In this document: positions 5,256-44,685 of the stretch, one piece after another | How the letters are laid out: every line of letters begins with the position of its first letter | Numbering within the stretch: the stretch's first letter is position 1 | Origin: Albula goreensis | Taxonomy: Eukaryota; Chordata; Actinopteri; Albuliformes; Albulidae | Direction: 5' to 3' | Length of the DNA: 64,000 bases | NCBI GenBank assembly: GCA_022829145.1 | Contig: CM040763.1 | Span: 1,337,342-1,401,341, forward strand | The notes under the pieces: generated by a model | Told to the model about the DNA's origin: nothing | Databases searched by the model: none | Seen by the model: only the letters and a program-made list of their open reading frames with translations | Position numbers and translations under genes: made by a program

Positions 5256-6339
5256 TGCCAGGTTTTTCCTTTACCTCTCTGCTGTAAGCCTGGTGAAAGC
5301 AGTGCAGTTCAGAGTGATAGTGCCAGGTTTATACCTCTCTGCTGTAAGCCTGGTGAAAGCAGTGCGGTTCAGAGTGATAGTGCCAGGTTTATACCTCTCT
5401 GCTGTAAGCCTGGTGAAAGCAGTGCAGTTCAGAGCGATAGTGCCAGGTTTATACCTCTCTGCTGTAAGCCTGGTGAAAGCAGTGCGGTTCAGAGCGATAG
5501 TGCCAGGTTTATACCTCTCTGCTGTAAGCTTGGTGAAAGCAGTGCGGTTCAGAGCGATAGTGCCAGGTTTATACCTCTCTGCTGTAAGCCTGGTGAAAGC
5601 AGTGCGGTTCAGAGCGATAGTGCCAGGTTTATACCTCTCTGCTGTAAGCCTGGTGAAAGCAGTGCGGTTCAGAGCGATAGTGCCAGGTTTATACCTCTCT
5701 GCTGTAAGCCTGGTGAAAGCAGTGCGGTTCAGAGCGATAGTGCCAGGTTTATACCTCTCTGCTGTAAGCCTGGTGAAAGCAGTGCGGTTCAGAGCGATAG
5801 TGCCAGGTTTATACCTCTCTGCTGTAAGCCTGGTGAAAGCAGTGCGGTTCAGAGCGATAGTGCCAGGTTTATACCTCTCTGCTGTAAGCCTGGTGAAAGC
5901 AGTGCGGTTCAGAGCGATAGTGCCAGGTTTATACCTCTCTGCTGTAAGCCTGCTGAAAGCAGTGCGGTTCAGAGCGATAGTGCCAGGTTTATACCTCTCT
6001 GCTGTAAGCCTGCTGAAAGCAGTGCGGTTCAGAGCGATAGTGCCAGGTTTATACCTCTCTCTGCTGTAAGCCTGCTGAAAGCAGTGCGGTTCAGAGCGAT
6101 AGTGCCAGGTTTATACCTCTCTGCTGTAAGCCTGCTGAAAGCAGTGCAGTTCAGAGCGATAGTGCCAGGTTTATACCTCTCTGCTGTAAGCCTGGTGAAA
6201 GCAGTGCGGTTCAGAGTGATAGTGCCAGGTTTATACCTCTCTGCTGTAAGCCTGCTGAAAGCAGTGCGGTTCAGAGTGATAGTGCCAGGTTTGTACCTCT
6301 CTGCTGTAAGCCTGGTGAAAGCACTGCAGTTCAGAGTGA
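5256..6339. repeat. 60-bp minisatellite, 18 copies
   Basis: Unit is CTCTCTGCTGTAAGCCTGGT, GAAAGCAGTGCGGTTCAGAG, CGATAGTGCCAGGTTTATAC. Because 60 is a multiple of 3 and the unit lacks stops in two frames, open frames of 311 and 399 codons result (from 5134 and 5199); they encode only 20-residue reiterations and are not credible genes. Thirteen copies keep exact register, then a 2-bp CT insertion near 6061 shifts the phase for the last five. Central copies are nearly identical while edge copies carry CAG/GTGAT or CTGCTG variants, the pattern expected from unequal exchange. Confidence 0.97.
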
Positions 6340-7905: not shown

Positions 7906-9394
7906 CCTAGTCCATGAGGCGAAGGGATGAAATGGGATGAAACGCAATGAGAAGGAGCTAGAAGAGGGGGAGATGGAGAGGGGCCTGTAGCAGGTCAGGG
8001 GAGCTGTGCTGCAGACCGGCTGCTTTCCCATGTGCCTGATGTGGGCAGGGACACAGTCCTGCTCCCTGGTTTGGCTTCCCATGCTCCAGAGGGCCCTCTC
8101 CAGCTGAAAGAGCTCCTAAACAAACACACACATGCCCGGTGGCTTCTCTTATTTAGTTGTCGGTCAAGAGTACTTAATAATATTTTAAAAGACAGTGAGA
8201 CATATCCTTTGGCCCTTGCCAAAAAGAGCTATATTTTTTTGCCTTTTTTTCTTTCCTACCTCACTAAAAATAAGAATAAAGAAACTGAGAGAAAAAGAGT
8301 CAAATCTAAAATGGACACTATTTGCGGTACTTCATAACCATATTTTGTAACTTTGGAACAAAGGGCTTGTTGACCGCTAAACTACGCTCTGGTATTAGAG
8401 GAATCTGCGTGGCACAGCAAGGGAATGGTTTCTATGGGGAGTGTCTTTGGCAGAGCGGAGTGCGGTCCTGTTACCTGAAGCCAAAATCCGTATCTGTGGA
8501 TCATCTCCCGGAGAAATCAATTTTCATCTAAATGTCAACTTTAAACCAGCCTTATTGGAATTAAGGACCGCAGTCCCAGACTGCGTGTTCGTATCGGCCA
8601 CCAATCTCATTCCACAACCGGCTCTGGCTCAGGGTTTAACCTTTCAGCTCATGGGATGCCCAAGTTTTGTGTTTTGATGGTTAAGCGTCCAAGTTAGCAG
8701 CATCAACTTTCAAACTCTCAGATAAAATCTCCAGGCAAGCACAATTGCACAGATACATTTGACCTAAAAGCTGAGAGATGGCTTCCTTTTACCATCTGAT
8801 AAATAAAAAAAAATTATAATAAGAGGACTCCTAATTCTACACACTCACAGATCCAAAAACGGTTTCAGGAACTTGCCGTTGGAACATGGCGACCCAGAGC
8901 GTCCTCGCCTCTTGCCCCCATCGTGTTTGCACGCTCTCGTCTGAACCGCACCACGTAAAAATATCTCCTTCAATTTTGTAAATGACAGTATCCATGTTCC
9001 ATATGTACCAGACAGCATGTATTTTGGTAAAGGGGGTGCGGGGACAGCAAGGCCTAGCGTTGTCTGAGTTCTCCACTGGGAAGGGATGGATTACGTGTTT
9101 GCCCCTCAGCCAGTTGTCTCCTCTTGGTCTCAGACGAGGTCCTGTTTCCTGAAAGCGTTCTTCAAAATACATTAAATTGAGGACGGTAAGACTTCCCACC
9201 CCAGCCGTTTCACATAGGTCCAGGGGTGGACGCGTGCTTTCACAGCTACATGGGGGTGGCACCGATATTCTCCGTCCTTACTCTCCACGGGACCAGCTCA
9301 ATAAAACATCCCATGCCGTTTACGCTGAATTACACCCAACAGAACCAACACGTGTTGTGAGAGGAGTGACACTTACATTTCTAGCGTTCTGAGT
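7906..9394. other. 5' flank, unique sequence
   Basis: Overlapping short open frames on both strands (the longest is 141 codons on the minus strand, 8837-9262), with no domain I recognise and no convincing splice structure. Could hold distal regulatory DNA; nothing can be assigned. Confidence 0.4.
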
Positions 9395-10379: not shown

Positions 10380-10978
10380 TATCTGCTTATGAACAAAGCA
10401 CAAACACACGATACTGGCTGCGCTTCCTCGGCTGTCTTACATGTGCGAGCTTTCTTCATGGCTCGCTCCATATGCTGCACCTAAAGCATTAGAAAAAGGA
10501 GGCGTGGATTGTGTTTGCTGTTACCTGGTGTATCATACCTGCAGACACACTGAAAGGTTTTAAGAGACACGGTTTAACGAGAGACGCAGCGGATTTCAGC
10601 TGTCTAGGTATAACGCGGTAACACGTCTCAAATCACAAATGTGCATTGCCATTTTAACTCAGGAGTAGAATATATTAACTACGGTTAGAAAAATTGCGGG
10701 ATATAAGAAAACAAATTGTCTCAACTTGGTCGGCGCCTCAGTTTTCTTCCCTTACGTTTTTAACTATATCCTTCTTTAACTTGGACAATCACTGCGTTTC
10801 ACGTGAAAACCTGTATGGAATCCATCACATGCAATGGATTTTAAAAATACCTGAGATGTTGTACTGTTATGTCTTACAGAACTTCTCAATCTGGGAGGGT
10901 TCAGCGGAATTCCAAATATGAAGGCACGCGTGACCAAATTTGTATTGTGAATGGCTTGCTCTCGAAGACTCTGAGAAC
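10380..10978 (+). promoter_or_regulatory. wnt7b: probable promoter and 5' UTR region for exon 1a
   Basis: Unique, non-repetitive sequence immediately before exon 1a, with scattered CpGs near 10430-10640 and a TATA-like TATAAG at 10702-10707, about 270 bases before the ATG. CpGs continue just past the exon (11340-11440). No transcription start site can be read directly; this is placed by position. Confidence 0.35.
10951..10974 (+). promoter_or_regulatory. upstream ORF before the exon 1a start
   Basis: ATG at 10951 opens a frame of seven codons (MACSRRL) ending with TGA at 10972-10974, four bases before the wnt7b ATG at 10979. It is out of frame with the main ORF. If the transcript begins upstream of it, this uORF could lower or gate translation of the canonical isoform. 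Whether it lies in the mRNA is an inference. Confidence 0.5.
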
Positions 10979-11049
10979 ATGCACAAACCTTTCAGAGATT
11001 GGATATCCTATGTGCTTTTGTGTTTCAGCATCATCTACCTAAGAATCGG
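10979..11049 (+). CDS. wnt7b: wnt7b exon 1a (canonical signal-peptide exon)
   Basis: Codes for 23 residues plus two bases of a glycine codon. It starts MHKPFRDW and continues with a hydrophobic stretch (residues about 9-21, [13 protein letters not shown]) that reads as a secretory signal peptide. The human counterpart, as I recall it, begins MHRNFRKW, so the start is well supported. The ATG has A at -3. The donor is GTGAGT at 11050. The two leftover bases GG join the first base of exon 2 to make Gly24, which restores the family sequence Gly-Ala-Leu-Ser-Ser. The exon is too short to stand out as an ORF and was found from the splice phase and homology. Confidence 0.9.
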
Positions 11050-14000
11050 GTGAGTGTTCATGAACAGCAAGCCTAGTCAACTCCGTTGATACATGCGACA
11101 GAAATGATCTATTTTGTTTGTCTATGATCAACAGTTATGGCTTACAGTTATGGCTTACATTTACTGCACTGCTTTTATTTACTGGCTCTCACTTATCTCT
11201 CGTTTACGCTGTGCTGTTGTGCGTTTATCTTTTTAGAGAACTATGTAAACACGTAGTCCAAGTGTGCTTGAATAAACTACAGAAGAACGTCATGAAGTTA
11301 AGAAACAACCCCTTCTGAAATTGTCTTGCAACACCAGTAACCTGCGCGCGGTGTGGCGGTATCCATCACGCGCTGTTGAAACGCGCTGACAGCACTCAGC
11401 CTCCGGCCGGTGAAAGATAGTGCGCGCGTCATTTATTCAATGGTTCTCGATAAGGATTTGTGTTGCTGTTGAAGTAGCCTGCTCAACGCTAGATTTAACC
11501 TTTCATTGCCGGTATGAATGGCAGACCGTTTTTAACTTATCGCTTAACAGCCTGGCTTTGCTTTCTGTCTGCGCCCGCTCCAGCTCACCCCGGAACTCCA
11601 TTAACAGCGGAATGCCGAGTTGTACTTCCACATTCTTTCACTCCGTAGGATTTACCCCCCATTTTTCTATGCTTCACCTTGGTTCTTGACCGCGTTACTC
11701 TTTCAACACTACCTTTATTGGCTGGGAACTAAAACACATACAACACCCTCCACAAAACCAATTCATCTGACGTTTCGGTCTAATAACCCGCCAAAACAAA
11801 CAAACTCGGATTTGGATTACATTTTCATTTCTGCAATGTAGTTGTAGCCTACATCATGCTTGGTGTCAGTTTTAAGAAATATTTACCCGTTTCATTCATT
11901 CTCTTTGTTTGTGTTAAGGATTCTGAAATGAACAGAAATGACCGCTTTTCTGTTAAAATTTGGATTTGTCATGCAAAATAAGCGTCATTTTGTACTACCA
12001 TGCACTGCTGCTGTGTTAAGCTAATTAACACGTATTATATATATACGTATTATGTACAATGTATTTACATGACACCTTAACATTTATTTTAAAAAAATGC
12101 AAAACAAGGATGTGAAGTATGGTCACCATTTGTTGTATATAGAAGTAAACCATTAGAAAAACTAACTGAACACATATTTTGACACAGGCAGCATAAAAAC
12201 AAAAATGAGGGGTGGGTCGTGGGTCAACTAATGACTGTCTAACCTTGGTGTAAGCACACCAATCAGCATGAGTGAACACTACAAATTCTCCCTGACAACT
12301 TTTCCTTTTCCCAAGAACTTTTCGTGATAGTGCCCAAATGTCCACTGGTGTTTGTACCGTGTCCCTGGAATGTTTCCCTGAAAGATTTATAAGCAGAATT
12401 AAGGCCATGCGAAGCGCTGCCAAATGACAAATAGTGTTTTGATCAAGGGTAACTTTTTTATACATCCGGCCCACCTACACTTTTCATTCGGGGGAAATCT
12501 CGCAGGATACGTTCAGTTAGTCACAGAGTCAGACACAGTGGAATTTCACCAGAGACCAAAGACTGACGCAGGCACGTTTCAAACAAGATGTCAAGCAATC
12601 ACGACGGCTAATTAATATTATATGAAAAATGCAAAGCTCATTTTATTGGTATTTTCTTTTTTAAAATCGAATTGTACATCGTGCGTCCCCGCTTCATTTG
12701 AGGAGTTATTGGGATTTTTTTTATTTCAGTATATGAAAATGGCACTGTGGTCGGATGTTCTGTCGGAAGAGCAGATGTGACAAGTGTAAGTAATGTACAC
12801 AGAAATAATGCATTCAGAGCACACAGCAGGGATGACACGAACATAAAAGTATGCATCTATGTTATGGGAAAGACAGGGAAAGACAAACTACGTTTATTTA
12901 CTAAGGCTATAGTAAGTAAGAGAGAGGTGGTCGCAGGAGACAGAGCGGTGTCGCCCCATTGTCCCGTCGTGTTTCAGAAGTGGGCGGATCTCTGCCCAAT
13001 GGCAGCCCCGACTCTCACGAGAGAAAGAGAAAGGCACTTTTCTGCCATCCAAAATCCCTTAAACCATCATCATTCCGGCACAGGAACCGCACTCTGTAAC
13101 AGCCTCTACCGCGAGGAGCTGAGGGATGACAGAGTCAATCCGCGCACCCGCAGCTCCGTCACGGCCCCGCTTGGAGTTGGGAGCGAGGCGGCGGCACCCG
13201 CAGCACTGAAGCGAACGCTGCGGAACGCATCAGGCTCGAACAGGAACGATGTGCTTTTTTTGCGTGCGAGGAAACTTAAAATCAGAACAAAAGGAATAAG
13301 GAATTCCTTTTTCCCCACCATTTTTTAATCGGCCGGAGCGGCCGTTTGTTCAATGTCATCATGATCATCTTTTCGTCACGCAGTGTACTGCTGTCAGTGT
13401 ACTACCCACAGATATTCCTCATCCTCACCAGCGGTAGCTACCTGTAAGTTGAGCTCAACATCTTACTCTGATTGCTTGTTGTATGTGTTTGTTTCTGGGT
13501 GCATAGTAAGGTACTGTGCGTTTGTATATGAGCTCGTCTGTTGTTTTTATTTGTTTAAATGTAGACTTAAATATGCTATACAAAGACTGGATATTAAAAG
13601 ATGAGAAGTTATTGTTTTTATGCTACATTTGAATAGCCTAATCATTAATAATTATTAACTGAAGTAACAGACACAGTGTGCAAACCTAATTAGCTCCCAA
13701 CAGCCAAGTACATTAGCGCATACTACCAATCAATATCGTTAATTTTTTTTTTTTTTTTTTTGGAGAAGGGGGATGCCGTTTTCTTTTAAGTTTACACATT
13801 TAAAATGGCATTGTTATTTTGTTTTTCAGTGATTAAAAGCAGTGTTGCAAATATTTTAATACCATGATATTTTAGGTTTTGTTGTATTTAGAAATATAAT
13901 GCAAGAAAGTTCTAAAACATTTAATTGCATTGATTGTATGAAAAGTTATTTGATTTTCCTAGCCACGTCTGTGAATCACATTTGTGTGAGGAATTTAAAG

Positions 14001-17000
14001 CAGTATTGATTTTTCCAAATGGTTTTAAAAACTTGCGAGAATATATTCTTAGTGTAATAGATGGAGAATAACTGCGTAATGGCTATACAGGATTTCATTT
14101 GGCCACAGACAGACAGAGAGCCGCTGAGGAAAAACTAAGGAAATAAAACAAATTCCCCTTTTTCAAGGGAGGAAGGATGTCCCTGCGTTTTTACCTGTCA
14201 GTGCTCGTGAATAAGGATTGCGCTTAGCCCATTACATCACCGTGTACTTACACGCGGCTCACGGAGGTTATAATTTAAAACCACATCTGGAAAAGCGGTA
14301 ATAAAACGTGGTCGCAGTCATGCTGCGTTTGATTGACACTAGTCTTCGTAATTACATCGTTATAACCGAAAGCAAAAAAAAAAAATTAAAAAAAATCAAG
14401 GTCCGGTTGCTGGAGAAAGATTTTTCGCCTTTACAATAATTACTGAACCATACGTTTAATCTTTGCGCTTAGACCCAGGGCTGATGCTAAAATAGATGTG
14501 GTTTATGGTTAGACGGTTTTTTTAAAAAAGTGGGCATGACTATGTTTAACTTTGGTAGAAACTACATACTTTTGTTTGTTTTTTAATTTCAACTTGCTTT
14601 ATTCGGCTTATGGCAAATTTGAAACGTCTTTCGGGGAAGGGGGCTGTTTCAAACATGTGTGGAATAAAAGGCCAGCATGCGGTTCATCCTCAAACGCCCC
14701 TTGCTCTTCAGATTCATATCCATAGCCTTATATTTTCTCGATCATAATGAATCCTCACGCAAGCTCAAGAAGCTGTACAGTCACAGCATTGTGTTCCTTT
14801 CAACCAGTTACAGCTGAACGATTTCGGATTGAACGTTTTACACTTTCTGCAAATAAGGTTTTTTTTTTTTTTTTTTTAATATAGACTGCGAAGCAACCAG
14901 ACAGATTTTCGTCATAAATAATTCACGAATTATCTTTAAAAAAAGAACAAAATATCAAATTAACATAAATTATCACAGCCAAGTGACTTTTGATTTACAT
15001 GTTTTTTTGGCTCCTTTCTCTCCTGTAGCCATTTTGTACCGCTGCTCACCATTGTTGTAGGCTGCTGGTTAATTTTTTTCTAGAAGAGAAAACGTAATTT
15101 TGTTGGTTAGAACTGCGAAGGTAACATGGTGAACATGAAAGGTGGGCTGTATGGAAAATATGTCAGTCTGGCCCTCAGACCCTGGGTTTCTCAGCAAGGG
15201 ATACAGCAGTGCTTTACCCATCAGCTAAACCAGGACCAGGGCCTTCTCGCTAACAGCATGATACTAAGAGCATTTTATTTTGAGAGCTTCTCAGGAAACA
15301 TCTGTAGCGGCAGTGTTCAAAATGATTTCATTCAGACAGGAATGTTTAAATTAATCATGGATTAACAGATAAAAAAACAACAGGACCAATTTCAATCCAA
15401 CAAATTTAGGGTCTTTGATGGCAGTGGCTATTCTGTTTTAGAATGACAGACTGCATTCCAAATGTCAGGTCTGGAGTAAAATACAAAACACTCCAAGAAA
15501 ATGTAAGTCGGTTTTGACTGAATTGCATGTGTGCTCATAGAGACAAAGGGCATTTAAACTGAATCATGCCAATACTTAGACCAGAAGCTACATCCAAAAC
15601 CTTTTTGGCCCCACTTAATCTACTTTCTATCACTGAACATGCCATAAACTATTTGCCCAGCAAACAAAAAACAACTTACATTTTATTTAAGCAAAATATT
15701 ACAATGGTATCTAGTTAACACTAATGATTGTAGCTTGTTTCTGACTGTCTCGGATTGCTTTATGTCAGAAAGTCCAAACACCCAGACATTTTGTCAATAC
15801 AGTTTTGTTTCACTCACTTATTCATTCCTGATGATACGTATAGATTGATTTTACCAATCACTGTAGAAGCAGATGTATTTTGATCTAAGGGATAAACATA
15901 ACATACATTACCCATTCATTACCACTCCCCTATACAGGATGCCCAAGTTCAAAGCCAACAGATCACAATCTGCTTTTATTCCTGCTGCGACTAACTTTTA
16001 AAATAAGCCATATAACCGGCACAATTTTATATCTTATAATGCTTCCTGTACCCTTGCTTCATGTGTCTTGCAGTTCATTTTTTACGGTGTTCGTGCTCAT
16101 TGTTTTTAAATATTGGTTCAGGTAATATACGCTCCAGGAGCTGCACAGGGTGGAGGAGAGGCTGTGGGGTGTGCTAACGGGGGGCATGTCTGGCTTAGCC
16201 TCGCATTCTCCCCCTCCAGCCACACAGATTGTACTGCGCTGGATTTGTGGCATGTTTCTGTGTGCCGCACAAAAATGAGAACTTAGCCTTGAGAGCCCCC
16301 GGCCTCCCGCTTGGAGAGTGCTGCGCTCATTTTGTGGCGTGTTTCTGTGTGCAGCACGAAAACAAGAACTGAACCGGTGGTGTTTGATTCATATTGGGTT
16401 TGACCACTTTGCTGGCTCTTGCACTCCTTTAGTGGTAAAAAAATGACCATAATAACAGATGAGTTAATGAGTGAATGGGAAGTGAATATTAGAGGGGGTG
16501 AATGAGTGAGTGAGTTGTTGAATGTGTTAGTGGACTCTTGAAGGGGTAATTGGATGAGTGGGAGGGTGAGCATGGGAGGAAGGTAGTGAATGAGTGAATA
16601 GATGTGTGAGGAAGTGAATGGGTGAGTAGGTAAACGAGTGACTGAAGAAGTGAATAATTCATGTTAATGAAGGGGATGAAGGAGTGAATCGGTGAGTGGG
16701 TGAGTGACTGAGTGAGTGAATATACATGTGAGTGGATGTATGAGAGGGACTGAGGAGTAACTTTGAGAGCGAATGAATTAGTGAGGGTGAACGAATGAGT
16801 AGCAAGGGACACGATTGTTTCATTGACTGGTTCCTCTGGTCTTAGCCATAACTTCCAAGATTGTCAGTTTTGACAATGTGGATGCTTGATGTGCTGCAGG
16901 ATTGAGTTAATCAAAAGGCAAGGCAGTTTGCCATTCACTTTCAACAGAAACAATGCTCTTTTTGTCAGAACAGGGTTTTTCATTTGCATGTTATAACCAA

Positions 17001-20000
17001 AAATAACAGTAAAATATGGAACAGAAAAAAATAACTGCACTGAATTTTACAACTGGATGGCCAAACCACTTTGTGATTTGACTGCTACCTCTCTAGAGCA
17101 TGGCCTGAATTATTTTTGATTATTCATTTAATACGTCTAGGCATATTTTTGTTTGTGCACTCTTAATGCTTTCATTGGTGGGATGGCAAAACCAAAGTCC
17201 CGAGATTAGTCTTTCAATAATATTAAATATTCAAAATCCCAAAATTATGTTATTTTTTCATATTGTCGTATGGACACCAAGTCTATGAATGAGATGAACC
17301 CTTTAGATTAGCAAACCACAAAAACAAAATACACCTTTTAAGTACAATTCTGAAAGCACGCTCCTTAATCTGATGAATCTCACTTGGGGAAACTGAATTA
17401 AAGTCAGTTTAAAGACTGTTACAGAGTTCTTCAGGTTAAGGCCCTGCTGCTGGAACGGTTGTGCTGTACTGCACTGCATATCTACAGGCCTCACTTTTCA
17501 GACTCCTAATTATGACATCATAACTATGCTAACCATTACATCATAACCATGTGCCCAGCATTCTACTATCTCTAATGTAGCTTTATTCAGGGCTGTTGTT
17601 GGCTAACAAACCAATGTTTGTTTACATCTACTTCTAATTAATCAACTGAGATGTACTGAATAATCTGATGTAGGCAGGACTCCAACCTGAAGCAGCTGTT
17701 CCCGGCTGTGGAATCTTTGGAAGCCATGTGGGGTAACAATATTTACCTGGGTTGGGGTGGGGTGGGGGCAGTATCACCTGAATGATACCCTGCCTGTGTT
17801 CCAAGGACTGAGTAGCACCTGGACACATGCCCTATAAAGGAGTGTGGGGGTATTGTCTGTGCTCTCCCAAAACGATGGAGGATATAGCAGTGCTGAGACA
17901 GGCCGAAAAATACCAGTGGAGAGAAAAAAAATGGAGTTCTTTTGAGTTTAAGAAAAATGCTCTCTGTGGGCAAGGTAATGGCAATGTTAAATGTGAGAAG
18001 AGAATGGAAGGGATTGTGTAGCCAATCAGATGTGGAGAGTGATTAGTTGGACACATGCAGAGAGCCACACTGGGGGTTTGTGAAGGATACTCGTGTTAAC
18101 ACCATAATCTTCTGTCATATTCCATGGGATCTCCTAAGACCGCAGTGAGTCAGGACTTCGCAGACTTTGGTTCAGCTTCACAGCTCCACCTAGCCCACTG
18201 GATGGCACAGAGGGATTTGAGAACCTGACTCACGGACAAATTCTTGTTCATTAGTGGTTGTGCATGTGGTTGTGTAGACTTCAACTCAACGAAAACAGCC
18301 AACACTGGAGTTGCCAAAATGCCCCCATCAATGAAATTTCAAATGAGAAAGTTATGACAGCAGAATTTACAAGCAAACTTGTGTGCACTGTTTCAACTTT
18401 CAGCAAACATGAAAGCAACCATCAACCAGCTCAGTGGTTCATTCTAGACAATTAAGCCTGGACCACTCTTGTTCATTAAAATGAGTTAATTCGTTGAGAA
18501 TCAGTTGTTGAGCAGCGCACGTATGTTTGCACTATGCCTGAGACAATGGAAACTGAAAGATATTCAGCATTAGTGGATTCCCCAGTGATCTATGCAGCGG
18601 GTCAGAAACACAGTGAACTATGCAGCGGGTCAGAAACACAGTGAACTATGCAGCGGGTCAGAAACACACAGTGAGCTATGCAGCGGGTCAGAAACACAGT
18701 GAGCTATGCAGCGGGTCGGAAACACAGTGAGCTATGCAGCGGGTCAGAAACACAGTGAGGTATGCAGCGGGTCAGAAACACAGTGAGCTATGCAGCGGGT
18801 CAGAAACACTGTGAGTTATGCAGCGGGTCAGAAACACAGTGAGTTATGCAGCGGGTCAGAAACACACAGTGAGCCATGCAGCGGGTCAGAAACACAGTGA
18901 GCTATGCAGCGGGTCAGAAACACAGTGAGTTATGCAGCGGGTCAGAAACACACAGTGAGTTATGCAGCGGGTCAGAAACACACAGTGAGTTATGCAGCGG
19001 GTCAGAAACACACAGTGAGCCATGCAGCGGGTCAGAAACACACAGTGAGCTATGCAGCGGGTCAGAAACACAGTGAACTATGCAGCGGGTCAGAAACACA
19101 GTGAGTTATGCAGCGGGTCAGAAACACACAGTGAGCCATTCAGCGGGTCAGAAACACACAGTGAGCTATGCAGCAGGTCAGAAACACACAATGAGCCAAG
19201 CAGCGGGTCAGAAACACAGTGAGCTATGCAGCGGGTCAGAAACACACAGTCAGCTATGCAGCGGGTCAGAAACGCAGTGAGCTATGCAGCGGGTCAGAAA
19301 CACAGTGAGATATGCAGCGGGTCAGAAACACACAGTCAGCTATGCAGCGGGTCAGAAACACACAGTCAGCTATGCAGCGGGTCAGAAACACACAGTGAGA
19401 TATGCAGCGGGTCAGAAACACACAGTCAGCTATGCAGCGGGTCAGAAACACACAGTCAGCTATGCAGCGGGTCAGAAACACACAGTGAGCTATGCAGCGG
19501 GTCAGAAACACAGTGAGCTATGCAGCGGGTCAGAAACACAGTGAGCTATGCAGCAGGGTCAGAAACACAGTGAGCTATGCAGGGGGTCAGAAACACAGTG
19601 AGCTATGCAGCGGGTCAGAAACACAGTGAGCTATGCAGCGGGTCAGGAACACAGTGAGCTATGCAGCGGGTCAGAAACACAGTGAGCTATGCAGAGGGTC
19701 AGAAACACAGTGAGCTATGCAGCGGGTCAGAAACACAGTGAGCTATGCAGTGGGTATGCATTTTAAGTTTTTTTTTTTTTAATCTTGTGCCAAAAAATGG
19801 AAACAAAGAACATGGAAGTTCCTCGTTTCCAGTCATTTTCTTGTTTTGCTGCTATGTTTCATAAGTTAGAGATGGCGACATTTCATTTCATTTTTTATCA
19901 TTTTTTAAAACTCATTTAAAAAGGTATCCACAAAATGCAGCCTGTCCTCCTTCTCTACTCTCTCCTCTCTCTTTCTGCCTCTCAGTCAATTCAAATTCAA

Positions 20001-23000
20001 ATATGCTTTATTGGCAAAACAAGAAAAACTTGTTGCTACAGCAATACTGATATGAACCGCAACCTCCCCTCCCCCTCCTCACAAGCCCTGGAGGGTTGCC
20101 AGTTGAAATGCTGGCATCCCCCCTCTCCTCCCGTTCCCCACCATCCCCATCCCTCTGATGTATTTGGAAGGAGAGTGTCTCGCAGCGTTTTTGGAAGTCT
20201 TTAAAAACACAGCCGGAGAACCATCCCCACTGTTTCTCAGCGGTCGCGAGCTTTGCTCGAGAGAGACCGCTCCAGAACGAGCCAAAGCACATCACAAAAA
20301 TACGAGCACAAAGGCAGGGATCAGAAACACGGCCACCACTGCTGTCCACATCTGCACCCTCTTGATGATATGAAGATGAACGATCGATTGCATTAGCAGG
20401 GTCCCTCGCATTCAATCAAAATGGACGATTCAGTCAAAATAAGAACCGAGTCTTTTAAAGAGCATTTGCTAATCTATTGTAGAGAAAAGAGAGCACAATC
20501 CAAAGGTCTGCTTGCTATCCAGTTAAATTGGAAATACTCAAACATATGTTGTAATATAAAGTCTGTTTTGATTGGATCATGTATTCCTTTAAATACACTC
20601 AGCCCCACCTGAGTGGTGCAAGGCAGCCATTTTGAGCCAGAGCCCTCCTAACACATCAGCTCAGGTGCGGAGAGAGAGAGGGACACAGTTACACTGTGAG
20701 GTCATCAGAGAGGGACACAGTTACACTGTGAGGTCATCAGAGAGTTACACTGTGAGGTCATCAGAGAGGGACACAGTTACACTGTGAGGTCATCAGAGAG
20801 GGACACAGTTACACTGTGAGGTCATCAGAGAGTTACACTGTGAGGTCATCAGAGAGGGACACAGTTACACTGTGAGGTCATCAGAGAGTTACACTGAGGG
20901 ACACAGTTACACTGTGAGGTCATCAGAGAGGGACACAGTTACACTGTGAGGTCATCAGAGAGGGACACAGTTACACTGTGAGGTCATCAGAGAGGGACAC
21001 AGTTACACTGTGAGGTCATCAGAGAGGGACACAGTTACACTGTGAGGTGATCATGTGACCAGGCTGAGAGAGTGGGGATTGGAAATTGGTCCAGAACTCC
21101 AGCGGAACCCCTGTCCTTGTGAAACATACCACGTGATGATATTTGTCATCTCAGTGAGTAACAAACAGCTATGGGTCTGCAAAAGGCAGTCTCTAAATTG
21201 CTGTCCTGCTTGCTAGCTGTTATGCACTCATACTAGGCTGCAGTTCTGCCATAGACACATAAATCTCAAATTATAAAGGAAAACATTTTGTGTGTGAGTG
21301 CTTGGAAGTGAAGTGAACCATGCCCAGCTTTGAGAAGCGCAGTTCCTTAGATGAGAAAAACGACTGCATGAGGCCCCGTACGGCCCGCACCGCCTGGTCT
21401 GAGCCTGGAACCAATTCCAGCTACAGCACCAGGCATCTGCGCGAGACCGCACTGTCACTCGCCAAACCATCCGGAGGGGGTATTGTCAGGGAGAAAAATA
21501 AACAAAAAATTTTTTATTTACTTTTATATTCTTTTTTTCCTGAACAAGATTTAAACATGCTGGGGGTAGCATTACGTGGAAACATTCTGTAGTTGGGATA
21601 CGCATTCCACTTCCTAACTATTTCAAATATAGAATTGCAACCACGATACTGGTATTATCAATGAATTGATTACATTACAAAATAACTGATTATTGATTGA
21701 TTGAGAGGATTGAAATCTCTGTCTCTGGTCTCTCCGCAGGGCCCTGTCCTCAGTGGTGGCTCTGGGGGCCAACATCATCTGCAACAAGATCCCCGGGCTG
21801 GCCCCCAGACAGCGTGCCCTCTGCCAGAGCCGGCCCGACGCCATCATCGTGATCGGGGAGGGCGCCCAGATGGGCATCAACGAGTGCCAGTACCAGTTCC
21901 GCTACGGGCGCTGGAACTGCTCGGCCCTGGGAGAGAGGACCGTCTTCGGGCAGGAGCTTCGAGTAGGTCAGTCATGTGCCCTGGACATGCCCCCCACCTC
22001 ACACATTCCAAAAACCCCACACTCCACTTGAATCATGTTGTTCTAAAGCTGTGGCCTAAAAAACTGCTGTGAGCACCAGGCCAGCTGCGAGATGATTTGT
22101 TTATAAATGGGACTAAACAATAGCAAAGACTGATAGACTGACTGCTTGGGTAATTAACTAATCAATCGGCTAATTGGCATATTTTCTGGGTGTTGCTCCA
22201 GGATGTTGTTTAGGGGCCAATTTAGTGTGCTGCAATGAACTGACTTTTGGACTTGGGAGATATAAAAAGACCAAAAGGAGAGTTGTAAGCCTGGTACACG
22301 AGGCTAGACAGAAAACAGAAAATCAAATCCACCCCCAGCACCCAGGTCTTGCAATGTTGACAGTACAGACTAGTGAGGGAAGAGCTGACCACCTGAACAC
22401 AAAGTAAATGACAGCTCTCTGGCATTCAGTGCTGGTGTTCCAGAATTCTGGATGTGGCGTTCTGGATTTCTGGACATGGTATGTGAAACATTGTTTAAAA
22501 TTCCAAGAGTCCATGTCTTAACCAGCTATGATATACGATGATATACTCTCTTCAGAGAGCAAGTAAACCATGCTGACACAATTGATAGTGGATTTTCCTT
22601 TGGCCTGTGAAGAATACCTTAAATACAAGGTTGTGTTAATTCAAATGATAAAACTATTTTTAAAGGGATTTGTGCTGTACTTCACGTGTGCACAGCTTGT
22701 TGCATTGTGGGATGGAATGAGGACATTAGGGGATGGCTTCCACTGTTAAATCAGACTCTGCTGTTGGGCTGACAGGTGCTTCAGGTGAGCTTTGGGGCTG
22801 AGAGAGCGATAAGCCTTGCTGTTATTCTGCTCTCATTATTTGTAGTTTTTTTATTGTAGTCTGCATTTGTCTGTGAGACCAAAACTATAAAAGTCCTTTT
22901 TTTAAAAAAAAAAAAAAATGCTTTGTTGCTGTAAAAATGCAGTTTGACTGCGTCTTTAATCTAGAGGTTCTGCAAACAATCACTTACCTTTGGAGTCGGC

Positions 23001-33600: not shown

Positions 33601-36600
33601 AAGAAGTTGAACTACATAGTAGTGTGGGGACAGGAAGTTGAGTTGCACACTGTATTTACACCGCTTTTGGGACAGGAAGTTGAGCAGTTACAGCTCTGTC
33701 CAGACAGCAAGTTCAGTTGTGTGCTATTGGGACAGGAAGTTGAGTACCACACTGTGTTCACACTACTTGTGGGACAGGAAGTTAAGCATGTATCACTGTC
33801 AGAACAGGAAGTTGAGTTGCAGTCCATGCTGCTGTAGGGACAGGAAGTCCCCAGCTCAGAGGCAGCTCTAACGGCTTCTCTCGCTCTCCCCTCCTCCCCC
33901 AGGCAGCCGGGAAGCGGCATTCACGTACGCCATCACTGCGGCGGGCGTGGCCCATGCCGTCACGGCGGCCTGTAGCCAGGGCAACCTCAGCAACTGCGGC
34001 TGCGACCGCGAGAAGCAGGGCTACTACAACCAGGAGGAGGGCTGGAAGTGGGGAGGCTGCTCGGCAGACATCCGATACGGCGTTGAGCTCTCCCGAAGGT
34101 TCGTAGATGCCCGCGAGATCAAAAAAAACGCCAGGCGGCTGATGAACCTACATAACAATGAAGCAGGAAGAAAGGTAACTGCAGCAGTTTGGGGAAAAAA
34201 GGGTTAAAAACCCACAAAAAGAGTTAAAAACCTGCAAAAATGTGCATATTTTCTTAAGGAGATAATCAGGAAATTTGCATTTTATTAGAAATTTTGCATC
34301 AGTAATTTGCATACGCTTACATTTTGCCATTTTGTTATTGGTTGTTTGCTTGATCAGTGAAATCGATCTGCATAGTACCGTGAGATGTGTTGTGCTGAGT
34401 TGCCTGACGTGTTTGATGTTAAGGCCAGTTTATAGAGTTCACCAGCGAAAGCATGCAAGTGTGTGTGTGCGTGACTGTATGTGTCTGTGTGTGACTGCGC
34501 ACCTGTGAGTGTGTGTGTGTGTGTGTACGCACATGAGTAAGTGAACATGTAAATGTGTGCGTGTGTGTGCGTGTGAGTGTGTATGATGATGCATGCTTGA
34601 ACGGGATTGCACATTTGGGTATGCTCGTGCATGCATGCTTGTACAAATACCTTTCCAGCAAACGATACCCAAAGCATGCTGAAATCAGGCTAGAATCAGC
34701 AGGAGAGAGGCTGAGAAGCACAGGGCCCATGGGCCGCTCCTGCAGCGGTCTGTGGCCTTGCAGTGGGGTGCAGCGCTTACTCAGAAAGCCATGGTTAGGC
34801 TTGTTTTGTTTCACTCGATTGCTGTGTTATTATCTTTTTCTTATGTGGCATCCTTTTCTTGACCAGTACTTTGGCACACGCCTCTTTTGGCATGTTTGTT
34901 TATTCTTATCCATCAAAGAATGCAGAACAACAAGGGCAGCTACACAGAAACAGGCTTTTAGATTTAAACCTACATTTAGCAGACACCCATATCCAGAGCA
35001 ATTTACACGGCCTGCTTTTTCTAACACACATTCATATTCTGGTGAAGTACCTTGCACATCACTGAAGTAAAAGCATGTTAATATAAAATGTGTTTTAAAA
35101 AAAACATTTTACAAGTGCACGAGAGTAAGGAGCTCAAACATCTCATCTGAGGGAAGGACCCTTGTACAGCACAGTGTCCCCATTGCTGTGTTGGGGCACT
35201 GGGGTTCTCTTTGTCCTGCAGGGACCGCCCCCTCACCAATCGGCCAATCAGCATCTCCCTCAGCAGCAAATTCATTTTTCCAGGTTGTCTCCGAAACCCG
35301 CACTGACTGAGCACTGACGCACTGTGTAATAACATGGGGGTGTCAGTCATCATTTAACTGAAAGCACATGCAGAGCTGGATCACTGAGGTTACTTTACTC
35401 CTGTCTTTCTTTGGGGACGGTTTATCCCAATCCCATGTTCAATGAAAGCTCAATCGAGTGCATTTTTCATGCACATTCTGTCTTTCCTTAACTTCGTTTT
35501 ATATGTAATAAAAGAGCACTGGTTAAAAGACTTCTGCACAGAATTAAGAACAATACAACATAATGTTGTATTCCTGGGCTCGTCCACAGGGTGCCTAAGT
35601 TCCCTCGCTGACTGTGGGTGAACACGACACCGTAATTACGGGCCTTCCTGCGCTTTACGCTGATCAGAAGCGTCTGCAAAGAAAGAGGCCGTGAGATCCG
35701 TTTCCATACGGTCCGCCGTTCCTCCCACAGTCCCAGGAACCGTTCTTGTAATCGCAGGATTCTGAATTTTATTACATGTAACGCAATACGTTTCCGCAGA
35801 TTGCAATGGTGTTCAGAATTTGCAACACCGATTATCTGCGTCTACGGGCATCGGGGGAAGGCGCTCGCTTGGGGCGCAGATGATTTTTTTCAGCCACAAG
35901 CAGCCAGGGTTTTTCCCGCATAAATGCCTCATGAACACTCAGACACATGAAATCAATTTTTTGACTTTCATGATCCTCCGCGCACAGCGATGTGACGGGG
36001 GTGAGCTCAATCAGACATCCCTGTTTGTATTTTTGCTAATACGTTGCAGACGCCAGTCTTTGAAGGACACCCCCATGCTAAGTGATCATTTCCAATGGAT
36101 CATCAATCAACTGCATTTCGTACGAACGATGATTGTGGCCTCCGTGCATTTTTTGGTGACTCCTCGTTTCTCAACTGCAGCCCAAAGACTGTTCATCCCT
36201 TTGTGACTTCTTGTCAGGGATTTCTGATGAATGAGAGAATTTCATTTTGAGTCTAAACACAATGGATTTCTTTTTTTTTTTTTTTTGGATAAATGACATG
36301 GTTCGAAAGGATTAAAGTATTACTTTGCGTGAGTTTTTCATAGAAACCATGACTTGCATTGGCAGGGCATGGTGCCAGGAAAAAAAGAGGGCACTGGAAA
36401 CATATTTTTGCAGAGAGAATTATGAATTTAATATAATGGACAAACTCATGTTCATCATTCCCATACCCACAGAGGCCTGGGAATGGAAGGACAGAGCATT
36501 GTCAGGCTAATACTGCAAAGAACAAAAAGGAAAAAAAACAAACAAATTATAGCGAGCAAACGCAGCATGCTACACTAGTCCAGCCAGCCGTTCACCGCAA

Positions 36601-38897
36601 AAACTGCAATGCACTGACAAATAAGCTATAAACCAGATTTCTATTGTAACTATACGACTGAAAGCTTTTTGCTTTGAGTTAAAAGTTCAGTCAACATGTG
36701 TGATCAAGTTTCATTCAACTTTACATTAATTTTTTGCCTTTTTTTTCTTTGTCAATTTTTCGTCTTTAGGAAGTTGACTTTGGTAATCACTGGCATTGCT
36801 ACAGCATGTTTGTGGGAATGTAATTGGAGAGCAACATAATTTGTGTGTGTGTATGTGTTTACATTCATATGTATTTAATACATCAATGCATGTTCATGTT
36901 TGTTTCAAATCTGACCAACACTAGTTTCCAAACACTGTAAGAGGTTAGGTTAGTTGTCAGAAACCTCAATTTATTTCTAATTGGTTTCATGCTCATCATA
37001 TGAAACAAATGAAGAGTTTTATATAAATACATGTACAGTAAATGCAAAAAACATGCCCATTTTTACTTAATACTGAAATTACCCTCAATGTAAAAGTTGC
37101 AAACTCCCATTAAAATAAATGACTAGTCTCTCTGAGGTGGACAAACAAACTTAAAGCATCACATCTCTTATTAAAGTAGATTATTTACTTCCTTCATGCA
37201 TATATGTAGTCCACATGTAAATGGTTAATAGCCTGAACTACAAGTCTGCAAAATAAGAGACCACTCAACATTTAACTTGAGTATAAAAGTATTTGAGCTT
37301 GAGCTTATATGAGAACCACATTTATTTATTTTTTGAACTCATGTGGTGTTTCAGAAGGTAAAAGGAAATTACAGCTTCACCAAATAAATGCATCCTTGCC
37401 ATGTATTTGACATATATCTGGATTACAATTACATTTCAGAATTTCAAATATGCCAGAAATGGGTTCTTTCCACTTGCAAACATCCATGTAAAAGAAAGAA
37501 CTGCAGCCCATGAATCAGTTATTGAAGTCTGCCAACTCTTTCAAAGCTAGAGTCAACTCTGGAATGGTCTGTCAACAAATAAAAATGTCATTTTGAAAAG
37601 AAACAGCAATAAAGATGCCAAACACAATTATTAATTGTTACCACAAGTAAACTATGCATTGTTTTTTCATAGAGGGAAATGACACATTGAATTGGAGGTT
37701 GTCGCTCTGAGAGTTATTGAGAGCCCAGTAGGCCTTGCCAAAAACTCGGTTTAAAATAATATGTCTTTGGTGCCGATCGAACGCAGTGGCGCATATAAGG
37801 TACTGATTTTGTCCAAAGACTTTTTACATATAAAAACTCTTTCATCTGTTCCTTTCTTTACAGTCAAACATCCTTGTAAATTGTCTGACAGGTAATCCTG
37901 AAGACCTTTCAATTTTGAACTTGTTGGGGCAGAAAAGCTGCCATTTCAAATGTGGCCAAATTCCCACCAGGCAATTCTCCAGATGCCTGTCTCTGTCTGT
38001 CTCTCTCTGAACAAGAACACAATACATCATAAAATCCTCACTATGAAAATCTGTATTCTATAAGGACTTATTTTTACAGATTAAATAATGGCCCGAATTC
38101 TACAAATAATCTTTAATACTTTTCTTCAATCTAAACCTGCAAGATAGGATTCTCGAACACTAGTCAAGGGGCTGGCTTCAATAAAGCAGTTCTGCCAGTA
38201 GCATTAGCAAAGCTAACGTGCACTGTTGCTTTATGTTGCGCACATACTTTGCTGGTGTAGAAACGTGGCGCTATTGCTCATGCTGAACACAGGTATGTAC
38301 TCTCACACTGCAAGCTGCTCTGGATAACAGTGTCTGCTAAATGACTGTAAGGTTGGGCTATGCAGTATCTGTGGAAAAGCGGGGCTAATGCATTCATCTG
38401 GTCGGTTATTTCTGTAGGTTCTGGAGGACAGGATGAAGCTCGAGTGTAAGTGCCATGGGGTTTCAGGTTCTTGCACCACCAAGACCTGCTGGACCACCCT
38501 GCCCAAGTTCCGGGAGATTGGCTACATCCTGAAGGACAAGTACAACGAGGCAGTACACGTGGAGGCGGTTCGGGCAAGCCGTCTGCGCCAGCCCACCTTC
38601 CTCAAGGTGAAGAAGGCCCAGAGCTACCGCAAGCCACCCGACACGGAGCTAGTGTACATCGAGCGGTCACCCAACTACTGCGAGGAGGACAGCTCCACAG
38701 GGAGCGTGGGGACACAGGGACGGCTGTGCAACCGCACCTCCCCCCATACGGACGGGTGCGACCTCATGTGCTGTGGGAGGGGCTACAACACGCACCAGTA
38801 CACCAAAGTGTGGCAGTGCAACTGTAAGTTCCAGTGGTGCTGCTTCGTCAGGTGCAACACCTGCAGTGAGAGGACCGAGGTGTTCACCTGCAAATGA
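10979..38897 (+). CDS. wnt7b: wnt7b, whole coding span (4 exons, canonical isoform, 349 aa)
   Basis: Secreted, lipid-modified Wnt ligand that signals through Frizzled/LRP receptors; in vertebrates Wnt7 proteins also use the RECK/GPR124 co-receptors in brain endothelium (family knowledge). Joined exons 10979-11049, 21740-21966, 33903-34174 and 38418-38897 give exactly 349 codons plus stop, the length I recall for human WNT7B. Phases are 2, 1 and 0, and every intron has GT/AG ends. The predicted mature protein has 24 cysteines. N-glycosylation sequons are visible at N83 (NCS), N127 (NLS) and N295 (NRT). The porcupine acylation serine is S206 in CHGVSGSC. Residues such as [26 protein letters not shown] and [20 protein letters not shown] match wnt7b rather than wnt7a as I remember them. 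Teleost ohnolog identity (7ba or 7bb) is unresolved. Confidence 0.95.
11050..12934 (+). other. wnt7b intron 1, 5' part
   Basis: Begins at the exon 1a donor. A CpG-dense patch lies at 11340-11440 and again at 11500-11600, directly downstream of exon 1a, suggesting that the promoter CpG island extends into the intron. The remainder is AT-rich and mostly non-repetitive; no coding exon seen. Confidence 0.5.
12935..13360 (+). promoter_or_regulatory. wnt7b: CpG-rich putative second promoter and 5' UTR of exon 1b
   Basis: Within an AT-rich intron this block is strikingly rich in CpG, with a GC box (GGGCGG, about 12982) and a nearby CCAAT (about 12996). It ends at exon 1b. A 193-codon open frame crosses it (12747-13328) but stops before exon 1b, is in another phase and resembles no family I know; GC-rich DNA is poor in stops, so I treat the block as promoter/5' UTR. 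It supports an independent transcription start for the 353-aa isoform. Confidence 0.55.
13353..13364 (+). promoter_or_regulatory. three-codon upstream ORF overlapping the exon 1b start
   Basis: ATG TCA TCA TGA at 13353-13364. Its stop codon overlaps the exon 1b start codon (ATGA at 13361-13364), the classic arrangement for termination-reinitiation. The uORF ATG has weak context (T at -3), whereas the exon 1b ATG has A at -3. A short GC-only inverted repeat (GGCCG GAG CGGCC, 13331-13343) lies 17 bases before the main ATG and could form a hairpin in the 5' UTR. Confidence 0.5.
13361..13443 (+). CDS. wnt7b: wnt7b exon 1b, alternative first coding exon inside intron 1
   Basis: ATG at 13361 (A at -3) opens 27 codons plus CT, followed by a perfect donor GTAAGT at 13444. 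The two leftover bases join the first G of exon 2 as CTG (Leu28), so the frame continues into Ala-Leu-Ser-Ser exactly as exon 1a does. The peptide starts [17 protein letters not shown] and continues with a hydrophobic [11 protein letters not shown], consistent with a signal peptide. An in-frame TAA at 13277 lies upstream, so this is the first ATG of the frame. The isoform would be 353 aa. From memory, vertebrate wnt7b records include an isoform with a very similar N terminus (a leader ending in SGSYL before ALSSVV); I could not check this. Phase, donor and leader-like composition together make coincidence unlikely. Confidence 0.8.
13444..16455 (+). other. wnt7b intron 1, between exon 1b and the GAGT repeat
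   Basis: About 3 kb of AT-rich DNA with T-runs at 13741-13760 and about 14861-14877 and A-runs near 14376. It is notably free of minisatellites compared with the rest of the window, which would fit preserved regulatory sequence but proves nothing. Confidence 0.4.
16456..16805. repeat. degenerate GAGT/GAAT tetranucleotide repeat
   Basis: Runs of GAGTGAATGAGTGAGTGAG with many interruptions over about 350 bp. The long serine/threonine/histidine-rich minus-strand frames here are products of the repeat. Confidence 0.8.
16806..18586 (+). other. wnt7b intron 1, unique segment
   Basis: AT-rich intronic DNA without a recognisable gene or repeat array. A G-rich stretch lies near 17750-17770. Confidence 0.45.
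18587..19755. repeat. 28/30-bp minisatellite, about 40 copies
   Basis: Unit GTGAGCTATGCAGCGGGTCA plus GAAACACA. Copies differ by one CA (AAACACAGTG or AAACACACAGTG), giving 28- and 30-bp forms. Between about 19305 and 19484 the variants form a three-unit higher-order pattern (GAGATATG, CAGCTATG, CAGCTATG) repeated twice. All open frames here, on both strands, are by-products. Confidence 0.97.
19756..20675 (+). other. wnt7b intron 1, unique segment with a probable dispersed-repeat fragment
   Basis: Contains TCAATTCAAATTCAAATATG followed by CTTTATTGGCAAAACAAG at 19985-20025, a phrase I recall as frequent in fish interspersed repeats, and a CpG-rich patch at 20180-20420. No coding exon seen. 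Confidence 0.45.
20676..21049. repeat. 32-bp minisatellite with 24-bp deletion variants, about 13 copies
   Basis: Full unit GAGAGGGACACAGTTACACT followed by GTGAGGTCATCA. Each full unit contains the perfect inverted repeat CACAGT-TAC-ACTGTG. A shorter unit lacking GGACACAG appears several times (about 20741, 20829, 20885), losing half of the inverted repeat. Confidence 0.93.
21050..21739 (+). other. wnt7b intron 1, 3' end and exon 2 acceptor
   Basis: Contains a short GC-rich island at 21340-21480 that is open for 90 codons from 21320 and has no recognisable homology. The splice acceptor for exon 2 has a pyrimidine tract at about 21715-21737. Confidence 0.45.
21740..21966 (+). CDS. wnt7b: wnt7b exon 2 (N-terminal Wnt domain)
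   Basis: 227 bp. The acceptor is CCGCAG ending at 21739 after a pyrimidine-rich run, and the donor is GTCAGT at 21967. It codes for residues 24 to 99 plus one base, including cysteines 38, 52, 73 and 84, the [13 protein letters not shown] block typical of Wnt7, and the N-glycosylation sequon N83-C-S. One substitution stands out: Leu51 in RALCQSRPD, where I recall Ile in human WNT7A and WNT7B. GC content is far higher than in the surrounding intron, as expected for a conserved coding exon. Confidence 0.95.
21967..25467 (+). other. wnt7b intron 2, 5' part
   Basis: Non-coding AT-rich DNA. It includes a 15-A run near 22904, a C-rich patch near 23009-23035, a 30-base A-run at 24606-24635 and a purine-rich stretch at 24225-24300. 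No exon or mobile element recognised. Confidence 0.45.
25468..25748 (+). repeat. 51-bp minisatellite, 6 copies
   Basis: Unit CACCCTACAGGCCACACACA, GTACTACAGGAGAGAGCCAG, TGACTATTTTA. Copies start at 25468, 25519, 25570, 25621, 25672 and 25721; the fifth is 2 bp short. As 51 is divisible by 3, open frames arise that have no protein meaning. An inverted relative lies at 28521-28624. Confidence 0.93.
25749..26549 (+). other. wnt7b intron 2, unique AT-rich segment
   Basis: A-runs near 26037 and 26105; no gene or repeat recognised. Confidence 0.45.
26550..27132 (-). repeat. 47-bp minisatellite built from a tRNA-SINE head, about 12 copies
   Basis: Unit CTCCCTAACCATTACACTAC, ACTGTAACCTCTGAGCTACA, AGCCCAG. 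On the reverse strand it reads GTGTAATGGTTAGGGAGCTG, GGCTTGTAGCTCAGAGGTTA, the tRNA-like start of many fish SINEs (A-box-like sequence). The array is therefore a SINE head expanded in tandem. Copies are very similar, with occasional CTGTAAGCTC or ATTATACTAC variants. Confidence 0.85.
27133..28520 (+). other. wnt7b intron 2, unique segment
   Basis: Includes a C-run at 27316-27325, a G-run at about 27381-27397 and an A-run near 27413. No coding sequence recognised. Confidence 0.45.
28521..28624 (-). repeat. inverted copy (2 units) of the 51-bp minisatellite
   Basis: Reverse-strand units read CACCCTACAGGCCGCACACA, GTACGACAGGAGAGAGCCGG, TGAATACTTTA, nearly the same as the + strand array at 25468-25748. 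Two units are present. Confidence 0.9.
28625..32128 (+). other. wnt7b intron 2, middle part
   Basis: About 3.5 kb without arrays. A C-rich/CA-rich patch at 30040-30240 contains C-runs. Open frames of 60 to 130 codons show no recognisable domain or splice context. Confidence 0.45.
32129..32412 (-). repeat. 56/57-bp minisatellite with ETS-type motif, 5 copies
   Basis: Unit AGTGATGCGGACAGGGGCAT, ATTTACTTCCTGTGGGGGAT, CGGGCTATGCAGGGGA. Each copy contains ACTTCCTGT (starts 32153, 32209, 32265, 32322, 32378), the reverse complement of ACAGGAAGT, a consensus-like ETS-factor site. Confidence 0.93.
32413..33433 (+). other. wnt7b intron 2, unique segment
   Basis: A 213-codon open frame (32584-33225) spans this stretch but shows no recognisable domain and drifts into AT-rich sequence; judged chance. 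A 25-base T-run lies at 33347-33371. Confidence 0.45.
33434..33850 (+). repeat. degenerate repeat with seven ACAGGAAGT motifs before exon 3
   Basis: Irregular 30-60 bp units centred on GGGACAGGAAGTTGAGT. Exact ACAGGAAGT occurs at 33474, 33630, 33672, 33732, 33774, 33804 and 33840, with decayed forms between (for example GACAGGAAATTGAG at 33431, GACAGCAAGTTCAG at about 33703). The last copy ends about 55 bases before exon 3. Confidence 0.85.
33903..34174 (+). CDS. wnt7b: wnt7b exon 3 (central Wnt domain)
   Basis: 272 bp, from after the acceptor CCCCCAG (33902) to the donor GTAACT at 34175. It codes for Gly100 (split codon) to Lys190, with cysteines 123, 131, 133 and 152 and the sequon N127-[22 protein letters not shown] and [12 protein letters not shown] are diagnostic for wnt7b over wnt7a. 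Residues GVELSRRF differ slightly from the GIDFSRRF I recall in human WNT7B. The exon ends in phase 0 after NNEAGRK, the usual Wnt7 boundary. Confidence 0.95.
34175..34458 (+). other. wnt7b intron 3, start
   Basis: Begins at the exon 3 donor; unique, no feature. Confidence 0.5.
34459..34590. repeat. imperfect TG dinucleotide repeat
   Basis: GTGTGTGTGCG/GTGTGAGTG-type alternating purine-pyrimidine run in the 5' part of intron 3. Histidine/threonine-rich frames on the minus strand are by-products. Confidence 0.9.
34975..35060 (-). mobile_element. SINE 3' part (tail), minus orientation
   Basis: Reverse strand reads GCAAGGTACTTCACCAGAAT, then GTGTAAATTGCTCTGGATAT, GGGTGTCTGCTAAATG. This is the conserved fish SINE tail (GTAAGTCGCTCTGGATAAGAGCGTCTGCTAAATG-like, quoted in pieces) preceded by the ACCTTGAGCAAGGTACTTTACC block. 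The tRNA head was not found. Confidence 0.7.
35061..38295 (+). other. wnt7b intron 3, main part
   Basis: Unique DNA. A CpG-enriched, non-repetitive patch lies at about 35580-36010; the remainder (36.2-38.2 kb) is strongly AT-rich. A T-run lies at 36269-36286. No coding exon seen. Confidence 0.45.
38296..38352 (+). mobile_element. SINE tail fragment, plus orientation, just before exon 4
   Basis: AGCTGCTCTGGATAACAGTG followed by TCTGCTAAATGACTGTAA is the conserved fish SINE tail. It ends 65 bases before exon 4, so a retroposon landed close to the acceptor and branch-point region. Upstream head sequence is not recognisable. Confidence 0.65.
38418..38897 (+). CDS. wnt7b: wnt7b exon 4 (lipidation site, linker and C-terminal cysteine-rich domain)
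   Basis: 480 bp from acceptor TCTGTAG (38417) to the TGA at 38895-38897; 159 residues (191-349). It contains the porcupine target Ser206 in CHGVSGSC (the thumb that inserts into Frizzled), the Wnt7-specific linker (about 236-280) that in the family is read by RECK, the sequon N295-R-T and 16 cysteines. The C-terminal index-finger hairpin reads [13 protein letters not shown]. Most Wnts I recall have His where this has Gln329, and wnt7 has Lys where this has Arg335. The terminal [11 protein letters not shown] is typical of wnt7b and the frame is intact to the stop. Confidence 0.96.
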
Positions 38898-44000: not shown

Positions 44001-44685
44001 TTTAAAGCTACAGTAAAGTCTTTCATGGTGATAAAATGACATTCCCATTTTTATTAATTTAAGCATACATAAATACAAACGGCTAAATATTGAACGGCAC
44101 TCATGTTAAGGGTAGACAGTGCATGGGGCTCAATGAAATAATGCTACACCGGAAGCTGTGACATAACTATGAAGGAAAGTACCACTGTTATGATTCAGCT
44201 CAAATTCATTTTGAATGGCTATTTTAACGGACGGATAACCGACATTTCTTCTCAATAATGCTACCTATTGAAAGTGTATCATACTGGTGTCAGTTCTCTT
44301 TTATTGTCGAGACAATATATCATTTAGAAACAATAAAAGTTTCTGAACAGATATATATAATCCTGAAATTGCACGGGAAATTGCAATTCTCACAAACATT
44401 CATATAGTCTCTAAAACGTAAATCAAGCATAAATATCATTTCATCAACCACTTCAGAAATAAAACCAAGGCTCAACAAACCATGAAAGTGATTTACTGTC
44501 ACGGTTCATATACAATCAAATCCTGCGAACAATGCGTACTTGCTCTGTAACCAAAATGCAAAAATCTAAATGCAAACGGGGTTTTAATGAAAACCTATAT
44601 TTCTAAATAAAAGATGTTCCTGTTTACTGCGTAAACCAATGGCAGGTATATTATGAAACAAATTTGCAGGTTGCAGGCGCTCCAT
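41001..44685. other. 3' flank, AT-rich, no gene recognised
   Basis: Unique AT-rich DNA. A G-run lies at 42910-42917. Open frames up to 81 codons carry no family signature. Confidence 0.5.

Follow-up and report, generated by a model that had tools for sequence, protein, structure and literature searches.

A candidate alternative first coding exon of wnt7b in Albula goreensis, conserved between two copies of the gene

Organization of the wnt7b locus

The window, which is the 64,000-nucleotide stretch of the Albula goreensis genome that was analysed (C23:1337342-1401341), contains the gene wnt7b and, within intron 1 of this gene, a short open frame with the properties of a second first coding exon, referred to here as the leader exon (Table 1). 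The 353-residue product predicted for the leader exon spliced to exons 2, 3, and 4 matches the Pfam family wnt (PF00110) with an expectation value (E) of 8.3e-126 over residues 45-353. Among solved protein chains, the nearest relative of the leader joined to exon 2 is Wnt-7a (E 2.4e-40), with the match beginning past the leader; the 28-residue leader on its own has no match among solved structures. The Wnt domain and the Wnt7-like sequence indicate that the gene belongs to the Wnt7 group, and the canonical leader is presumably that of Wnt7b. Two other Wnt7 copies, on contigs C14 and C12, are candidates for wnt7a. The first 10 residues of exon 2 in the C14 copy resemble solved Wnt-7a; the first 11 residues of exon 2 in the window were set beside them. 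No Rfam family is matched within the window at gathering scores.

Table 1 Features of the wnt7b locus in the window and of its counterpart on contig C25.
Feature	Position	Strand	Remarks
wnt7b canonical first coding exon	10979..11049	+	23 residues and GG; donor CGG/GTGAGT; C25 counterpart identical in 20/23 residues
Conserved block, candidate second promoter or 5' leader of the messenger RNA	12985..13105	+	CCAAT box CCCAATGG at 12995-13002, and TTAAACC; from comparison with C25
Upstream frame of three codons, ATGTCATCATGA	13353..13364	+	Stop overlaps the leader start codon; identical in C25
wnt7b candidate alternative first exon, coding part	13361..13443	+	27 codons and CT; 27/27 residues and 81/83 bases identical in C25
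Leader exon splice donor GTAAGTT	13444..13450	+	7 bases identical to C25, then 18/54 at intron positions 7-60
wnt7b exon 2	21740..21966	+	Spliced model; acceptor 21739/21740 common to both first exons
wnt7b exon 3	33903..34174	+	Spliced model
wnt7b exon 4, coding part including stop	38418..38897	+	Spliced model
C25 canonical exon 1	C25:22904580-22904650		Counterpart of exon 1 in the window
C25 leader exon	C25:22906851-22906933		Counterpart of 13361-13443
C25 exon 2	C25:22915656-22915882		Followed by exons 3 and 4

Frame, splice phase, and chance expectation

The leader frame comprises an ATG and 26 further sense codons followed by CT, after which GTAAGT begins at position 13444. The base at position -3 relative to the start codon at 13361 is A. 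Exon 2 opens at 21740 with G GCC CTG TCC, and the codon at the junction of the leader exon with exon 2 is CTG, which encodes leucine. The spliced product has 353 residues; the route through canonical exon 1 gives 349 residues. The sequence ALSSVV is preceded by 28 residues in the longer form and by 24 in the shorter one, and the rest of the precursor is the same. The hydrophobic core of the leader is broken by YYPQ. A preliminary description of this DNA had proposed a 27-codon frame in good start context and in the phase required by exon 2, and both proposals agree with the sequence.

The abundance of such frames has been estimated by a scan of both strands of the 64 kb for hydrophobic frames that start with ATG, span 15-45 codons, and run into a phase-2 donor. 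The thresholds of the scan (donor 2.5, hydrophobicity 1.5) were chosen after the values of the 13361 frame were known; at the first, stricter thresholds only canonical exon 1 passed. Seven leader-like frames are located on the plus strand and three on the minus strand. Two frames in intron 1 have A at -3, and the second of these, at 16039, is more hydrophobic than the one at 13361. In sixty first-order resamplings of the sequence, the plus strand holds 3.6 frames on average, and the mean is 0.35 for frames that lie in intron 1 and have a purine at -3. Because intron 1 holds two candidates and the shuffled sequences give 0.35, the signals alone place the leader little above chance and are suggestive but weak evidence for it.

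Conservation of the leader exon in a second wnt7b copy

A search of the genome (932 Mb in 208 contigs) with the leader joined to exon 2 gave 25 matches with E no higher than 0.001, of which two start at residue 1 of the leader: the window itself and C25:22906851. The exons of the wnt7b copy on C25 have the same order as those in the window, and the distance from the start of exon 1 to the leader is 2.27 kb on C25 and 2.38 kb in the window. The leaders of the two copies are identical in 27 of 27 residues and in 81 of 83 bases, with both changes synonymous. By contrast, 11 of the 71 bases of canonical exon 1 have changed, five of them nonsynonymously (2/83 versus 11/71; Fisher p 0.007). The conserved leader, which the preliminary description had named as a check of its proposal, is therefore present in the paralog within the same genome.

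The six bases of the leader donor are identical in the two copies, followed by 18 identical bases of the next 54. The corresponding values are 6/6 and 13/54 for the donor of exon 1, 6/6 and 11/54 for that of exon 2, and 5/6 and 17/54 for that of exon 3. Outside the exons, 11050-38417 comprises 26786 bases, of which only 2474 can be aligned between the copies. The score of block 12922-13450, which includes the upstream region and the leader exon, is 426 bits in the comparison of the loci. Within the 45 kb compared, this block is third by similarity, with exons 4 and 3 ranking above it and exon 2 below. The frame, phase, and hydrophobic character of the leader are kept in both copies.

The comparison with C25 also bears on whether the leader is an open frame that arose by chance in intron 1, as its expected frequency in shuffled introns and the more hydrophobic frame at 16039 could suggest. 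Among the ten leader-like frames of the window, canonical exon 1 (20/23 residues) and the leader (27/27) are the only ones with counterparts on C25, whereas the best matches of the frame at 16039 and the other seven within 59.7 kb of the C25 locus share no more than 9 residues (gapless scan, with a match required at one of the first three residues). Judged against the C25 copy, the leader is far above chance. A chance origin was dropped as an explanation after this comparison, and its probability is negligible unless the two copies arose recently.

The region upstream of the leader exon

Calculated in 20-base bins, the identity of positions 12980-13099 with C25 is about 93%; C25 has an insertion of 10 bases where the block begins. 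Both CCCAATGG and TTAAACC are present in the two wnt7b copies. The segment 13180-13319 is much less conserved than the blocks on either side of it, and the upstream block and the leader exon therefore form two separate peaks of conservation. The conserved CCAAT-containing block is suggestive of a second promoter of wnt7b, and the leader exon probably has a promoter of its own. A CpG-rich block before the leader had been described previously. The block is real, with a GC content of 0.60 and a ratio of observed to expected CpG of 0.98 in 13000-13249, against whole-window values of 0.42 and 0.46; however, the enrichment is modest, and ratios of 1.1-1.55 are reached at lower GC content in the bins at 10500 and 11250, near canonical exon 1, and at 14250. 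Inspection of the alignment with C25 by eye did not identify a conserved splice acceptor upstream of the leader ATG, and this speaks for a first rather than an internal exon.

The frame ATGTCATCATGA has T at -3, and it is therefore plausible that ribosomes scan past it. This mini frame could control the frequency of initiation at the leader start codon.

Noncoding blocks with 73-82% identity between the wnt7b loci are located at 14269-14702, 8099-8288, 44620-44999, and 29972-30181. These blocks are candidates for old enhancers shared by the two loci.

Assignment of 13361-13443

The frame, the phase, and the conservation on C25 support the earlier proposal of an alternative first coding exon as the best interpretation, and 13361-13443 very likely represents the coding sequence of a genuine alternative first exon of wnt7b. 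Several properties of the locus weigh against this assignment. The exon is a prediction from genome sequence. The peak hydrophobicity of the leader over 10 residues is moderate only, 1.67 as compared with 2.78 for the leader of canonical exon 1. The donor had been called perfect, which is correct for its intron side; because the exon side, CCT, is poor, its nine-base score falls to 2.9, versus 6.3 for the donor of canonical exon 1, on a scale built from approximate donor base frequencies. Exons 2-4 have changed at 67 of 979 bases, and the leader, with 2 of 83, is not significantly slower (p 0.16). The chance that two random changes are both synonymous without coding constraint is about 7%, and therefore the codon pattern alone is no proof that the leader is coding. 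The 20 bases before the leader ATG are identical in both copies, and the constraint acting on them is therefore not coding. Furthermore, transcripts starting before 12999 would carry an upstream frame of 109 codons, which has 20 codons in C25. Another upstream frame, at 13126, has 27 codons in the window and 24, encoding a related peptide, in C25. Since upstream frames would burden translation, a transcription start nearer to the leader exon, or control by the upstream frames, is likely.

The conserved block reaches beyond the leader frame by over 400 bases in the 5' direction; this, together with the 20 identical bases, would also fit a conserved noncoding regulatory element of wnt7b, such as an intronic promoter or enhancer in which the open frame is accidental and untranslated. 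Other noncoding blocks of the locus are conserved, for example 14269-14702 and 44620-44999, and the two synonymous changes (p about 0.07) are not decisive. However, conservation peaks precisely on the stretch from the start codon to the donor and ends at the donor as it does in the other exons, and the preservation of frame, phase, and hydrophobic character in both copies makes a purely regulatory role improbable.

Age of the wnt7b pair

The wnt7b genes on C23 and C25 are presumably the teleost duplicate pair. The synonymous divergence (dS) of exons 2-4 between them is 0.29, while exon 2 of the wnt7a copies on C14 and C12 is saturated. A low dS fits poorly beside introns that hardly align, and it may reflect either constraint on synonymous sites, homogenisation of exons, or a wnt7b pair that is younger than the wnt7a pair. 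The low value, beside the saturation in wnt7a, would fit recent gene conversion or a young duplication as the source of the identity between the copies, with a leader frame that has no function. However, the introns are mostly unalignable, the similarity stops at the donors, and a conversion tract ending precisely at a donor would be odd. Moreover, the leader has changed less between the copies than canonical exon 1. It is thus highly unlikely that conversion or recent duplication accounts for the leader.

The retention of the leader in two wnt7b copies of one genome is the sole indication of its age. A gapless scan of 19.9 kb around each of the wnt7a copies on C14 and C12 did not find the leader; the best scores were 32 and 22, respectively, as compared with 130 for the leader against itself. 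Relatives were not found in collections of prokaryotic and viral contigs, a result of little weight given this content.

Other features of the window

A 60-base tandem repeat occupies 5272-6336 (17.7 copies, 98% match) and is the reason for the long overlapping open frames of this segment, for which no Pfam family was matched. Intron 1 of wnt7b contains a 28-base tandem repeat of about 41 copies at 18583-19755.

Proposed model of wnt7b expression from two first exons

We infer transcription of the leader exon, a separate promoter, signal-peptide activity, and tissue use. According to the proposed model, a second promoter within intron 1, about 2.4 kb past canonical exon 1, would give rise to a separate transcript whose 5' end falls within the conserved block 12985-13105 or downstream of it, and the first exon of this transcript would be spliced from 13443 to 21740. 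The resulting 353-residue precursor would differ from the 349-residue form in the leader alone, with the signalling part unchanged, and the leader is predicted to act as an alternative signal peptide. Application of the -3,-1 rule by eye suggests possible cleavage after G25 or S26, in which case the mature protein would be longer by two or three residues relative to ALSSVV, whereas cleavage at the common ALS/SVV would add none. The main gain is probably separate control of one ligand by tissue or stage, possibly with a small shift in entry into the endoplasmic reticulum or in the cleavage site.

A broader interpretation is offered tentatively, and it is rather doubtful: wnt7b may already have had two leaders with separate promoters when it was duplicated and have retained both, the second of which (leader, start codon, and ATGTCATCATGA) is conserved more tightly at the nucleotide level than the canonical exon. 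In that case, the second transcript would be under separate translational control and would fulfil an indispensable role of its own, possibly involving different secretion.

Relation to other Wnt genes and significance

Two first exons that provide two N termini occur in WNT16 (WNT16a and WNT16b) and in WNT2B. These are different genes from wnt7b, and the likeness concerns the dual first exons. WNT7B isoforms of 353 residues, with a similar leader before exon 2, are presumably present in vertebrate databases; if so, the leader exon would be the fish counterpart of an exon already annotated elsewhere, and the dual-promoter design might be ancient, as the preliminary description had suggested. 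A text search of the literature for the leader peptide gave no match. An alternative first exon of Wnt7b is described in no paper among the matches listed, which is weak evidence of absence, since subscription journals lie largely outside the search. One paper concerns an internal sequence of Wnt7a and not the leader (PMC11633749).

A report on human WNT5A describes exon 1 and exon 1-beta, which give rise to WNT5A-L and WNT5A-S (PMC3832467). As proposed for wnt7b here, the second first exon is located inside intron 1 and is spliced to a common exon 2, and an alternative start of transcription changes the N terminus of the precursor; the two secreted WNT5A proteins differ (PMC3832467). Unlike the second exon of wnt7b, which would encode a complete leader, exon 1-beta contains no coding sequence, and translation of the shorter WNT5A-S begins in exon 2 (PMC3832467). 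The WNT5A forms are backed by protein and RNA data (PMC3832467), whereas the wnt7b leader exon is predicted from sequence. WNT5A is the closest documented case to the leader exon of wnt7b.

The ligand Wnt7b acts in the vessels of the brain, and in the lung, kidney, and limb. If the second leader exon is old, alleles, reporters, and constructs based on canonical exon 1 would miss one class of transcripts, and the deletion of exon 1 alone may not give a null. The pair of leaders would also make it possible to test cleanly if a Wnt with alternative signal peptides is secreted differently or is only expressed at different sites.
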